Shown here one piece after another: positions 34,974 through 41,054 of a stretch of 64,000 nt of DNA (its first letter is position 1; each line of letters begins with the position of its first letter). Location of the stretch: positions 1 through 64,000 of the forward strand of contig CAOKWH010000001.1 in assembly GCA_948473085.1 (NCBI GenBank), given 5' to 3'. This DNA is from an uncultured Clostridia bacterium. Its GTDB lineage: Bacteria; Bacillota; Clostridia; Oscillospirales; Ruminococcaceae. Made by a program: the position numbers and the translations under genes. The notes beneath the pieces were generated by a model that did not search any database, had not been told where the DNA came from, and was given only the letters and a program-made list of their open reading frames with translations.

Positions 34974-35024
34974 GGGAAAGTTTTAAAAAAGGAACCGTGG
35001 AGAATATCCTTCCTGGTTTTTGTT

Positions 35025-35282
35025 TTATAAAATGGTGTGCTTTGCCTGTTTCTTTAAGCCCTCCCGGACTGCTTCGGCCAGCAGCTCGATGGGGCGCCAT
35101 ATAAATCCGCCATCTTTACTGCCGTTTCAAAGCTGGGGCTGTGCTTCCCTTTTTCATAGGACTGCAAGGTGCGCAGCCCGATATCCAGCAGCCCTGCCGC
35201 CTTCTCCTGCGAACATCCTGCCTCTTCCTCAGCCTCCTGTAGATGGGTTATGCCGGTTGGCTGGTTTTTTTTAATTGTTCAT
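35025..35282 (-). pseudogene. XRE-family helix-turn-helix regulator, frame-disrupted
   Basis: Reverse-strand frames give THLQEAEEEAGCSQEKAAGLLDIGLRTLQSYEKGKHSPSFETAVKMADLYGAP then, in another frame, IELLAEAVREGLKKQAKHTIL*. The start after AAGGAG reads ATG AAC AAT TAA and is out of frame with the HTH. Confidence 0.65.
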
Positions 35283-35557
35283 GTAAAACAACTCCTTTAA
35301 TTGTAGTCAGACTTGGTCTGCTTAAAGAAATTGTATAACATTTTTCCTATCAAGCCAATGCGAGCAGGAACTGCTGGAACAGCACGGCAGAACAGTCCCC
35401 TTTCAGCAGTTGCCGGGGATCGTTTACAGTAGTGCAAAAGCAAAAAAATACCGCACAGGCCGGATAACCGACCCATGCGGAAAACACTTAAAGAGTTTAT
35501 TGGTACAGCCGCTTTGGCGCAAAATCTGGAGAGGCACCTGCCGGCTGCCCTTTCCAA

Positions 35558-35578
35558 CCGGCGGGCTAACCCGCCGAA
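35558..35578. repeat. Perfect hairpin (CGGCGGG-CTAA-CCCGCCG)
   Basis: 7-bp perfect inverted repeat with 4-nt loop upstream of the 144-bp repeats. Confidence 0.6.
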
Positions 35579-35610
35579 TTTGGACTAAAAGATACCTGCT
35601 TACCGGGAGA

Positions 35611-35913
35611 TAAATCATAGACCATCCAGCCTACACCGGGCGATATTTGACGAAGTCAAATTCGCACCGATACCGGCCAATTCATCTAAAACTTACTCAG
35701 AATGCAAATCTTACTCACCTCGATGTTTTGGCAAAGCCAAAACTCGCAGGGAGGTAAGTCGCAGACTATCCAGCCTATGCCGGGCGATATTTGACGAAGT
35801 CAAATTCGCACCGATACCGGCCAATTCATCTAAAACTTACTCAGAATGCAAATCTTACTCACCTCGATGTTTTGGTGTAGCCAAAACTCGCAGGGAGGTA
35901 AATCGTAGATTTA
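35611..35913. repeat. Tandem duplication of a 144-bp palindromic element (two copies plus a short third start)
   Basis: CGATATTTGACGAAGTCAAATTCGCACCGATACCGGCCAATTCATCTAAAACTTACTCAGAATGCAAATCTTACTCACCTCGATGTTTTGG occurs at 35641 and 35785. Internal hairpins GCGATATTTGAC-GAA-GTCAAATTCGC and GTTTTGGC-AAA-GCCAAAAC. Confidence 0.9.
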
Positions 35914-36957
35914 CCGACCAGTATCAGGGTTGGGCTTGCCAGTGTTGCCAGTGCTGGAAGAAGCAGGCTTGCTGCTCTCTTCCTTCTCGTCTGTAACAAC
36001 AGTCTCATCCAGCTCTACATCAGAGATAGCGTAAGCGCCCAGAGTTCTGGTCTTGAAGGTCCAGGCCTCGTAGTCCTCATCCCACTTCAGACCCTTGATT
36101 TCCTTAGCACCGTCAGCAGTTACTTCGTAGATGAAGGCATCCTCGTCAGCATAGATGTAAGCAACACCTGTCTTGTTGAAGGAAGGAGACTTCTCGAAGG
36201 TGATGAAGTCAATGTTGGCATAGTCGTACATATCGCCAAACTCAGCATTGAACTTGTTGTTATACTTCAAGTTCAGCTTGCCCTGGCCAGTTACATCAAC
36301 CTCAAATTCAAACAGGCTGCCGAAAGCCAGGGTTTCTTCACCCTCAACACCCTTGAAGTTTACAACCTCAACCTTAGCCCAATCTGCAACAGTATTGTAG
36401 GCTTCTTCATTGTAACCATACTCAGAACCAATATTCAGAGTGATATAATCCTTATCTGCAAAAGTATCCTTCAAATCGGAAGAATTCTTGTAAATAGAAA
36501 TGCTACCAGCCAGATCCGAAGTCTTTACAGCTGCTGCATCGGGCAGAACGAAAGTGATAGCGTATACATAGTCGTTAGTTACACCATCGTTAATCTTAAC
36601 CAGGTCAATAACAGGCTTCTCATCCAGCTTTCCAACCTTCCAGTCAGCCTTAACCTTGTAGCCCTTGATATCGTTCTTGTCTACAATATAAGTACCATCC
36701 TGATGATAAAGCGGAATAGCAACCTTGCTGCCGCCATTTTCTCTGCCAAAAGTAACAGGGCTACCAGCCTCTACAATGCCAGTTTCTGTTTCATTAGCAT
36801 CACCGAAACGGCCATTTCCATCTACATCGACATACAGGTTAGTAGTGCTATCTGTAGCCAAAATTACCTCGGCTGTTGCGGGACCAGCTGCAAATGCAAC
36901 TGTTGTCATTCCAGCAGTCATAACGGCAGCCAGAGTGAGCGCAAAAATCTTCTTCAT
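35911..36957 (-). CDS. Secreted/surface protein ending abruptly in NPDTGR
   Basis: MKKIFALTLAAVMTAGMTTVAFAAGPATAEV signal peptide behind AGGAGG, acidic extracellular domain, Ser/Pro/Gly-rich tail SSKPASSSTGNTGKPNPDTGR*; no C-terminal hydrophobic segment. Provided ORF start (37029) lies in the 5' leader. Confidence 0.85.
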   Translation of the reverse strand: MKKIFALTLAAVMTAGMTTVAFAAGPATAEVILATDSTTNLYVDVDGNGRFGDANETETGIVEAGSPVTFGRENGGSKVAIPLYHQDGTYIVDKNDIKGYKVKADWKVGKLDEKPVIDLVKINDGVTNDYVYAITFVLPDAAAVKTSDLAGSISIYKNSSDLKDTFADKDYITLNIGSEYGYNEEAYNTVADWAKVEVVNFKGVEGEETLAFGSLFEFEVDVTGQGKLNLKYNNKFNAEFGDMYDYANIDFITFEKSPSFNKTGVAYIYADEDAFIYEVTADGAKEIKGLKWDEDYEAWTFKTRTLGAYAISDVELDETVVTDEKEESSKPASSSTGNTGKPNPDTGR

Positions 36958-37047
36958 TGTTTCTTTTCCTCCTAAAGTTTTTCTTTTACAGTTTTCCACT
37001 GTTTCCAGCAAGCCGGCGCTCTCCAACACCCCCTGCTGTTAAGAAAA

Positions 37048-37075
37048 AGTATACCCCCCCCCGGCATTTTGTCAA
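37048..37075 (-). promoter_or_regulatory. Promoter with poly-G(9) spacer for the surface protein
   Basis: Minus strand TTGACA-AAATGCCGGGGGGGGG-TATACT (16-nt spacer, nine consecutive G). Confidence 0.75.
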
Positions 37076-37217
37076 CCGGTTTTTGACGCTTTTTTGTAAT
37101 CTTTTTGTAATTTATTTATTTTTACCAACTTATTTTGGCCTTTTTTGTTATTTTTCTGTAAGATTTGTACGGTTTTATTCCCCTTTTGTTTTCCACCATT
37201 TCCAGTTTTTTAAGTGC

Positions 37218-37262
37218 AAAACGGCGGCCGGAACCGTTTTTACCCGTTTCCGACCGCCGCAG
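37218..37262 (-). terminator. Intrinsic terminator downstream of purL
   Basis: Minus strand CGGCGGTCGGAAAC-N-GGTTCCGGCCGCCG-TTTTGC. Confidence 0.7.
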
Positions 37263-37281
37263 CTGTTTTTATTCTGTAACC

Positions 37282-40200
37282 TTATTTAAAATACTTGACA
37301 GCACCCTTAAATATCGGCTGATACTTGTGGCCCTCAATATTTTTATAAATCCCCTCGCTAAACCGCTCAAAGTGGCACATCTTGCCAAACACCCGGCCAT
37401 CCGGGGAGGTGATGCCCTCCACCGCATAGTAGGAGCTGTTGGGGTTGTAATCCACCAGCATGCTGGGCTTGCCCGCCAAATCCACATACTGGGTGGCAAT
37501 CTGGCCGTTTTGCTCCAGCTGGCGGAACAGTTCCGGTGTGCAGACAAACCGGCCCTCGCCGTGGGAGAGGCCCACGGTGTACACACCGCCCAGCTCGCAC
37601 TCGGCCAGCCAGGGGGACTGGTTGGACACCACCTTGGTGCGCACTATTGTGGACTGATGCCGGCCAATCTTGTTAAAGGTCAGTGTGGGGTCGGTATCCT
37701 TGATGTCCACAATTTTGCCATAGGGCACCAGGCCCAGCTTAATCAGCGCCTGGAAGCCGTTGCAGATGCCGTTCATCAGGCCATCCCGCTGTTCCAGCAG
37801 TTCCATAATGGCCGCCGATACGGCAGGATTGCGGAAAAAGGCGGTCATAAACTTGCCGGAACCATCCGGTTCATCCCCCGCCGAAAAACCACCGGGAATG
37901 GAAACAATCTGGCTCTGCCCCACCATCCGGGCAAATTCCCGGGCCGAATACTCAATATCGGCGGCGCTGCGGTTCTGGATTACGAAAAATTCCGGAGCCG
38001 CACCCTCCATCTCAAACACCCGGGCCACATCATACTCGCAGTTGGTGCCGGGGAACACCGGGATAAGCACCCGGGGCTTGGCAAAGGACTGCCGGGCCAC
38101 AATGCGCTTGGCAGCCTCGTGGTAAATTTCCGGGGCCTGCTCGCCAGTATCCGGCAGGTGATAGGGATAGATGCTGTGCAGCTTCTTCTCCCACTCCTGC
38201 TGGATGGCAGCGCCGTCGATGTGCTCTCCCGCCAGAGTAATGGCAAAGTCGGCGGATGTGCGGCCCAGCAGCGCGCCCTCCGGCAGCTCCTCAGTGCATT
38301 CCAGCAGGATAGCGCCGTGCAGCGGGGCAAAGATACGCTGAATATCCACACCTTCCTCAAAGGCGAAGCCAATGGCATTGCCCAGGCCCATCTTGGTAAT
38401 GCCCTCGCAGATGCCGCCGGCTGTTACAGCCCAGCCGGAAACCGCCTTGCCCTCGGCAATCAGCCGATGGGCAGTTTCAAACACACAGCGCACACTGTCA
38501 AAGCAGGGTAGGCCGTTTTTATCTGTTTCGGGGGCAAGCAGATACACCGGGTGCCCAGCGGCCTTGAATTCGGTGGAGATAATCCGGTCGAGCTGCTGGG
38601 TGGAAACAGCAAAGGAGATGAGGGTGGGCGGAACATGCAGTTCCTCAAAGCTGCCGCTCATGGAGTCCTTGCCGCCAATGGCGCCAGCTCCCAGTTCCAG
38701 CTGTGCCCGCAGGGCGCCCAGCAGGGCGGCAAACGGCTTGCCCCAGCGGCTGCCATCCTGTCCTAATTTTTCAAAATACTCCTGGAACGAGAGCCAGCAG
38801 TGCCGATAGTCGGCACCGGCAGCCACCAGCTTGGCCATCGACTCTATCACGGCATACATGGCGCCGTGGTAGGGGCTTTGCTCGGACAGATAGGGGTCAA
38901 ACCCCCATGCCATCATGGAGCAGGTGGTGGTTTTTGCATCCAGCACCGGAATTTTTGCCGCCATAATCTGGCTGGGGGAAAGCTGGTACTTGCCGCCGAA
39001 GGGCAGCAGCACCGTGCCGCCGGTAACGGTGGAGTCAAAGCGCTGCACCAGCCCCTTCTGGGAGGCTACATTCAAATCGGCCACCCGCTCCATCCAGCGC
39101 TGGGTTACACTGCCATCGGCTGCCGGGCAGGGCTTCCACTCCGGAGCGGATACCCGGATGTCTATATGCTTCACTGCGCCGTTGGAGTTTAAAAAGTCCC
39201 GGGACAGATCCACAATGGTATTGCCGTTCCAGTGCATCACCAGCCGGTTTTTATCGGTTACAACCGCCACCGGTGTTGCAGAGAGGTTTTCCTTCTGGGC
39301 GGCGGCAATAAACTGCTCCACATCCCCGGGAGCCACAACCACTGCCATGCGCTCCTGGGATTCGCTGATGGCCAGCTCGGTGCCGTCCAGCCCCTCATAC
39401 TTCTTGGGCACCCGGTCCAGCTGAATATCCAGGCCGTCTGCCAGTTCGCCAATGGCCACCGAAACACCGCCGGCGCCAAAGTCGTTGCAGCGGCGAATCA
39501 GCCGGGTTACTTCCGGGTTTCTAAACAGCCGCTGGATTTTGCGCTCCTCCGGGGCGTTGCCCTTCTGCACCTCTGCCCCGCAGTTCTCCAGCGAGGCAGC
39601 TGTATGGGACTTGGAAGAACCGGTGGCGCCGCCGCAGCCATCCCGGCCGGTGGCGCCGCCCAGCAGGATAACCACATCCCCAGGCACAGGCACTTCCCGG
39701 ACAACGGCATCCGCTGGGGCCGCGCCCATAACAGCACCCACTTCCATCCGCTTGGCCACATAGCCGGGGTGGTAAAGCTCGGCCACATGGCCGGTGGCCA
39801 GGCCAATCTGGTTGCCGTAGGAGCTGTAGCCAGCAGCAGCCGTGGTGACAATCTTGCGCTGGGGCAGCTTGCCGGGCAGTGTTTCGGACGCCGGGGCCAG
39901 CGGATTGCCGGCACCGGTGAGGCGCATGGCCTGATAGACATAGCTCCGGCCGGAAAGCGGATCCCGGATGGCGCCGCCCAGGCAGGTGGCCGCCCCGCCG
40001 AATGGCTCAATCTCGGTGGGATGGTTGTGGGTCTCGTTTTTGAACATCAGCAGCCAATCCTCGGGGGTGCCGTCGTGGTCCACTGTAATTTTCACCGAGC
40101 AGGCATTAATCTCCTCCGACTCATCCAAATCGGTGAGGATGCCGCTGCGGCGCAGTTCCTTCGCGCCAATAGTGGCCAAATCCATCAAGGTAACCGGCTT

Positions 40201-40986
40201 GTCCCTGCCGGCATGGACCGTTTCCCGCAGCTCCAAATAGCGCTGGTACTCCTCCTGGATATAGTCGCAATCGATGGAAACAGTATCAATATGGGTGGCA
40301 AAGGTGGTGTGGCGGCAGTGATCGGACCAATAGGTATCAATCATCTTCACCTCAGTAATGGTGGGATCCCGGCGCTCGGTATCCCGGAAATAGGCCTGGC
40401 AGCACAGGGCGTCGTCCAGGTCCATTGCCAGCCCGTTTTCCCGGATAAACTGCTCTAACCCAGCCCGGTCCAGGGCGGTGAAGCCCGCTACAACCGGCAC
40501 CGTTTCAGGGATGGCATAGCGGGTTTCCAGCGTTTCGGGCAGCCCCAGGCCGGCTTCCCTGCTCTCCACCGGGTTGATGAGATAGGCCTTGATGCGCTCC
40601 AGCTCCTGGGCGCTCACCTGGCCTTCAATAATATACACCCGGGCATTTTGCACAGTTGGACGCTCCCCCTGGGTGGCAAGCTGGATACACTGGGCGCAGG
40701 AATCGGCCCGCTGGTCGAACTGGCCGGGCAGGTACTCAATGGCAAAGATATGGCCCTCTGTTTCGGGCAGCTGGTCATAGGTGATATCCACCGGAGGCTC
40801 GGAAAAGATGGTGTCCCGGGCCTGGCCAAACGCCTCCCGGGAGATGCCCTCCACATCATAGCGGTTGAGCAGGCGCACCTTCTGGATGGTGTTCAGCCCC
40901 AAATCGCTTTTGAGAGAAGCAAGCACCCCGGCGGCCTCCACTGCAAAGGCCTCCTTTTTTTCCACATAGATTCTGTAAACAGACAT
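37282..40986 (-). CDS. purL: Phosphoribosylformylglycinamidine synthase (single-chain PurL with glutaminase domain)
   Basis: 1234 aa; [46 protein letters not shown]; C-terminal glutaminase [27 protein letters not shown]...[18 protein letters not shown]...[15 protein letters not shown] before ATG 40986. Confidence 0.96.
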   Translation of the reverse strand: [1234 protein letters not shown]

Positions 40987-41054
40987 ATGCACAACTCCTT
41001 AAACTTCTGCCGCTGGGCGGCGTGTCCGGCCCCTGTCAGGAGCCACCTGTTGGT

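Follow-up and report, generated by a model that had tools for sequence, protein, structure and literature searches.

A candidate phase-variable poly-G promoter, one of a family, before a signal-peptide protein gene of a gut-type Clostridia bacterium

A run of nine guanines separates the -35 and -10 hexamers of a promoter in an uncultured, chicken-gut-type Clostridia bacterium, and slipped-strand phase variation of transcription at this tract, in a family of putative surface proteins, is the best explanation for it and one that we regard as probable. The promoter lies on the minus strand (37075-37048) of the window, as we call the whole stretch of 64,000 nucleotides that was analysed, and reads TTGACA-AAATGCC-G9-TATACT with a spacer of 16 nt; the first-pass annotation had given exactly this layout and had placed it about 90 nt before a signal-peptide gene, both of which are borne out by the sequence. 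Its wider claim, that a Clostridia commensal has a slippable G-tract in the spacer of a strong-looking promoter serving a signal-peptide protein, agrees with the sequence and with comparative data, and its term "candidate" phase-variable promoter appears to be the right one, because change of tract length within a clone and an effect on expression are what we infer. Beyond that annotation, we observed that the window promoter is one member of a family of poly-G promoters. The features of the window copy are:

37110-37106 and 37099-37095, minus strand: two TTACA direct repeats, 11 bp apart, a candidate activator site
37070-37075, minus strand: promoter -35 hexamer TTGACA, read from the sequence
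37063-37069, minus strand: spacer part AAATGCC, kept across the genus as AARTGC(C)
37054-37062, minus strand: G9 homopolymer GGGGGGGGG (C9 on the plus strand), adjoining the -10 hexamer, the proposed slippage tract
37048-37053, minus strand: promoter -10 hexamer TATACT, which is TATAAT in most relatives
37006-37038, minus strand: stem-loop at the start of the 5' leader, predicted by RNAfold
35911-36957, minus strand: 348-aa protein MKKIFALTLAAVMTAG...KPNPDTGR, a member of a paralogous family, with a signal peptide recognised by inspection

A consensus scan gave the promoter 11 of 12 matches over the two hexamers, and such scores are by themselves not rare. The -10 hexamer is followed after 90 nt by the ATG at 36957, which is itself preceded by AGGAGGAAAAGAAACA, and the gene upstream (37282-40992) is one that we take, judging from its sequence, to encode phosphoribosylformylglycinamidine synthase. 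An Rfam search of positions 35000-38000 returned no family. Hairpins resembling the leader stem-loop are predicted by RNAfold for most paralogues, including those with a fixed promoter, and the element is possibly an mRNA stabiliser.

A single G/C run of nine is unremarkable in 64 kb, as a second-order Markov model predicts about 0.5 runs of nine or more per window (56% GC), and the significance of the window promoter therefore rests on recurrence and placement. Genome-wide pattern searches found TTGACA-N7-G8 eight times in the 1.89-Mb genome versus zero in a reversed control; in all eight copies the G-run touches TATAAT, TATACT or, once, TATAAA, and every copy whose downstream gene is present in the assembly precedes a signal-peptide protein. 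There are 15 tracts of at least eight Gs in this genome, eight of them in promoter spacers and seven in or beside coding regions. The same arrangement recurs in two congeners, the isolate An564 (deposited as Hydrogenoanaerobacterium saccharovorans, NZ_JACSNR) and Candidatus Avimicrobium faecavium (CAJFQR, a chicken MAG), which carry 6-7 and 9-10 TTGACA-type poly-G promoters (6 and 9 matches with a slightly looser pattern); An564 has two further ones with TTGACG, and the total is at least eight in each congener. The 2.3-Mb genome of An564 contains only six tracts of at least eight Gs, and all six adjoin TATAAT, have TTGACA or TTGACG 15-19 nt upstream, and precede signal-peptide proteins. Across the three species paralogous signal-peptide proteins lie downstream of nearly all poly-G promoters.

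These distributions bear on the view that the run is a coincidence or an assembly artefact, that is, a chance G-run, a miscounted homopolymer or neutral slippage on which selection does not act. The single G9 run in 64 kb is indeed close to what the Markov model predicts, MAGs make up several of the assemblies, and some of the poly-G loci sit at contig ends. Against this, G-runs of such length are otherwise few, with 15 and 6 tracts in genomes of 1.9 and 2.3 Mb, and they are concentrated in the promoter spacer; the reversed controls are empty, and An564 was deposited as a strain rather than a MAG; we regard this account as very improbable. Its simplest form, a chance G-run, was rejected on account of the eight occurrences against none in the control together with the six of six An564 tracts that lie in promoters.

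Some further tracts were observed in coding regions. In the window's own genome (G000) a LysR regulator is split into two halves in different frames across a G8 (L051, C21:17563), an ABC ATPase has a G8-G9 tract at its start (L053, C22:23860), and a G8-G9 tract lies at the junction of a GntR-like gene and an ABC ATPase (L050, C20:15470); these three are candidate translational switches. Several coding-region G8-G9 tracts have TAC on their upstream side and TAT on their downstream side.

The spacing of the poly-G promoters sets them apart from the other promoters of the genus. In the three genomes the spacer is 17 nt in 149 of the 212 ordinary promoters listed (exact TTGACA/TATAMT), and this share of 70% upholds the earlier claim that one extra G would give the window promoter its optimal spacing. 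Among the listed TTGACA-type poly-G promoters, a class taken from G5 upward, only 4 of 25 have 17 nt (Fisher p=2e-7), and their spacers run from 11 to 18 nt, although these 25 are not independent cases because paralogous promoters share ancestry. The two TTGACG promoters of An564 have spacers of 18 and 19 nt, so that overall, in the three species, runs of G5-G11 recur at the equivalent spot within spacers of 11-19 nt. As in transcriptional phase variation of the porA/opc/vlp type, an uninterrupted simple repeat lies between the -35 and -10 hexamers; every listed promoter starting TTGACAAARTGC has an unbroken G-run, and what surrounds it appears to be an otherwise intact vegetative promoter with conserved TTGACA and TATAMT, its spacings bracketing the genus norm of 17.

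Tract length also differs between similar copies, both paralogues and species, with G7-G11 seen from one species to another, a comparison made on one assembly consensus per species rather than between strains, and MAG homopolymer counts can be wrong. The clearest case is a pair of recent duplicates in A. faecavium (L034/L038), whose flanks are identical at 110 of 120 positions (~92%) and align gap-free; they have G8 and G10 tracts and spacers of 15 and 17 nt. The poly-G promoter of an amino-acid permease (AA_permease_2; L213, L020) has a spacer of 11 nt in An564 and 16 nt in A. faecavium, the two proteins being 92% identical over 65 compared residues; this difference is not pure slippage, since its 5 nt include non-G bases. 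Genes outside the protein family lie downstream of the two copies with 11-nt spacers, a point against reading the tract as a switch.

We propose that DNA polymerase would slip on the G-tract and thereby shift the spacing of the -35 and -10 hexamers in 1-nt steps around a 17-nt optimum, so that within one clone transcription of the exported protein would be high in some cells, intermediate in others and very low in still others. With its 16 nt the window copy should, on this proposal, fall short of its maximum and reach the optimum on gaining one G. Such a switch would stand before most members of the surface-protein family and one amino-acid permease, and the set of these proteins would therefore vary from cell to cell, while in each species a single gene cluster would stay on a fixed promoter. 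The benefit would probably be evasion of phage, antibody or competitors.

A further observation is awkward for this proposal. Among 398 genomes of the taxonomic family the G-run is biased to the non-template strand, with 38 poly-G versus 3 poly-C places, even though the poly-C pattern was the looser of the two; the poly-C counterpart of the promoter is thus nearly absent from that sample. The preference for non-template G is unexplained by slippage alone and counts against reading the tract as a switch. It is a point for the alternative that the G-run, having descended together with the family, is a fixed structural element of the promoter (a rigid spacer, a binding site or G at -14/-15) whose length matters little and which switches nothing. 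The invariable contact of the run with the -10 hexamer and the common descent of many copies speak for the same alternative, as does the base composition of ordinary promoters in the genome, which at the second position ahead of the -10 carry G in 48% of cases and C in 12%. The last figure, however, may also account for the strand bias under the switch proposal, since a G-run would keep the favoured base in place at any length. A structural element would be expected to show constant spacing and to tolerate interruptions, rather than G5-G11 and spacers of 11-19 nt in three species; moreover, some family members have fixed promoters with no G-run, and unrelated, mostly exported genes in other genera and phyla carry one. 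We accordingly consider a fixed structural role unlikely.

The protein family itself helps to place the tract. Profile searches matched 12, 17 and 14 family stretches in the three genomes, some genes being two-domain. For the 348-aa window protein Pfam gave no relative scoring above chance and the PDB none that convinces, and a structure predicted from three sequences (mean pLDDT 40) was too poor for use. Each species has one family locus with an ordinary fixed 17-nt promoter free of any G-run (G000 C15; G001 C2, 199-205 kb; G002 C68), and homologues in other genera of the taxonomic family (G006, G008, G024) have no run of seven or more Gs within 300 nt upstream. These loci show the G-tract to be apparently dispensable for expression of the family, and the most natural reading of the G-run is therefore as an addition made at genus level to some of its members, not as a family constant.

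The first-pass annotation spoke of a "surface antigen". An export signal and a sortase-like C-terminal motif are present, and a surface location is what the signal peptide seen by inspection, the xPxTGR C-terminus and the enrichment of exported or membrane products described below would suggest. Genus members whose C-terminus was read (the window gene; L207, L209, L211, L214-L216, L255-L260) end in [NI]P[DSN]TGR-stop; in these C-termini no hydrophobic segment and positive tail follow the motif, as would be the case in an anchor of the NPXTG/LPXTG sortase type. Sortase genes occur in all three genomes. Among the other-genus loci L266, L267 and L270, homologues end in NPSTGARA, NPSTGAAC or NPGTGC, and a protein adjoining one homologue ends in ...IAAGAVVFRRKK. 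Directly 3' of the window gene (~35620-35910) we observed two tandem, near-identical elements of ~140 bp with internal inverted repeats, and similar ~140-bp elements lie 3' of other family genes in all three species.

Upstream of the window promoter the two TTACA repeats begin 35 and 24 nt before the -35 hexamer. Direct repeats of 11 bp are typical of OmpR/PhoB-family regulators, and the TTACA pair is a candidate response-regulator site resembling sites of that type. Both TTACR repeats are found in 14 of the 16 class-A promoters of the genus, the window promoter among them, at the same position or 1 nt closer, and the proximal one in all 16; among the genus promoters compared, the TTACA repeats are absent from the six of the other class. 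This conservation and the 11-bp period favour the possibility that the promoter is ruled mainly by a trans-acting factor at the repeats, the tract only fine-tuning its strength over evolutionary time. Such an account leaves a pure, length-variable G-run in near-optimal promoters unexplained, and in the second promoter class the tract is present but the repeats are missing; as the main explanation it seems to us improbable, although regulation by a trans-acting factor and switching at the tract are mutually compatible.

Beyond the genus, a search of 398 genomes from the taxonomic family, this genus included, located TTGACA-N-G8-TATAMT in 15 of them; in a phylum sample of 398 others only 1 had it, and neither set gave a match in its reversed controls. 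Among the matches listed from public genomes there are scattered cases in Clostridia, Bacilli, Treponema, Streptobacillus, Streptococcus and others; the pattern used there allows a spacer of up to about 18 nt, and its spacer distribution is left out of the evidence. An N-terminal signal or membrane segment, called by a simple hydropathy rule of our own making, is encoded downstream in 57 of 75 listed matches versus 121 of 452 background ORFs from the same loci (p=6e-16), and in 42 of 58 listed cases after poly-G promoters, the figure for ordinary promoters being 13 of 41 (p=8e-5). Unrelated genes that seem to share a switch design and a bias to exported products would be typical of contingency loci. 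By appearance, the downstream genes in public genomes include several carbohydrate-type ABC permeases. Streptobacillus notomytis has several promoters with G9-G11 spacers (L101, L158, L162, L180, L182), and one Clostridia MAG has three poly-G promoters in a row before paralogous exported proteins (L154).

This raises the possibility, towards which we lean only slightly, of a multi-locus contingency system in gut Clostridia, in which at least eight dispersed poly-G promoters would independently and gradually switch surface proteins, so that every cell would display its own chance mosaic on top of a core protein that stays constant, and of a design for exported proteins that would have evolved more than once, in gut Clostridia, Bacilli, Treponema and Streptobacillus. 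If this is true, surface make-up would vary at random among the cells and strains of a species, which would bear on escape from phage and antibody, on the interpretation of expression data and on strain-level metagenomics, tract length being readable from reads; the An564 strain genome, lying within the genus, would make switching directly testable. We found no earlier report of poly-G or other homopolymer promoter switches in Clostridia in the open-access literature that was searched, most subscription papers lying outside it. Phase variation in gut commensals was described there mostly as DNA inversion, and tract slippage from pathogens and Bifidobacterium pili.

Among known systems, the vlp lipoprotein genes of Mycoplasma hyorhinis have a poly-A tract in each vlp promoter and generate combinatorial surface mosaics. 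They resemble the present case in being a surface-protein gene family with its own homopolymer promoter for each gene; they differ in having poly-A, clustered genes and a wall-less host, whereas here the tract is poly-G, the loci are dispersed and a sister cluster is on a fixed promoter. The fimbrial promoter switch of Haemophilus influenzae uses a (TA)n repeat, a dinucleotide in a divergent promoter pair, where the present one has a G homopolymer in a promoter spacer. In the passages that cite that switch in PMC9187656 and PMC5084427, the spacer repeat alters both the spacing and the expression of a surface structure. In the pilus of Bifidobacterium breve, G-tract slippage controls a surface structure in a gut commensal (PMC9187656), but that tract is located inside the coding region, where it acts as a frameshift switch, unlike the promoter-spacing tract seen here. 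Neisseria porA (poly-G) and opc (poly-C) share with the window promoter a homopolymer between the -35 and -10 hexamers of the promoter of an exposed protein. In N. meningitidis a change from 11G to 10G causes a twofold loss of PorA and 9G gives a 13-fold lower level (PMC3639595), so that 1-nt changes of the tract give graded expression, a behaviour that we propose for the present promoters by analogy. The Neisseria cases are single genes of a Gram-negative organism, whereas here, as known from sequence, a multi-gene family of a Clostridia commensal would be governed by G-runs adjoining the -10 hexamer.
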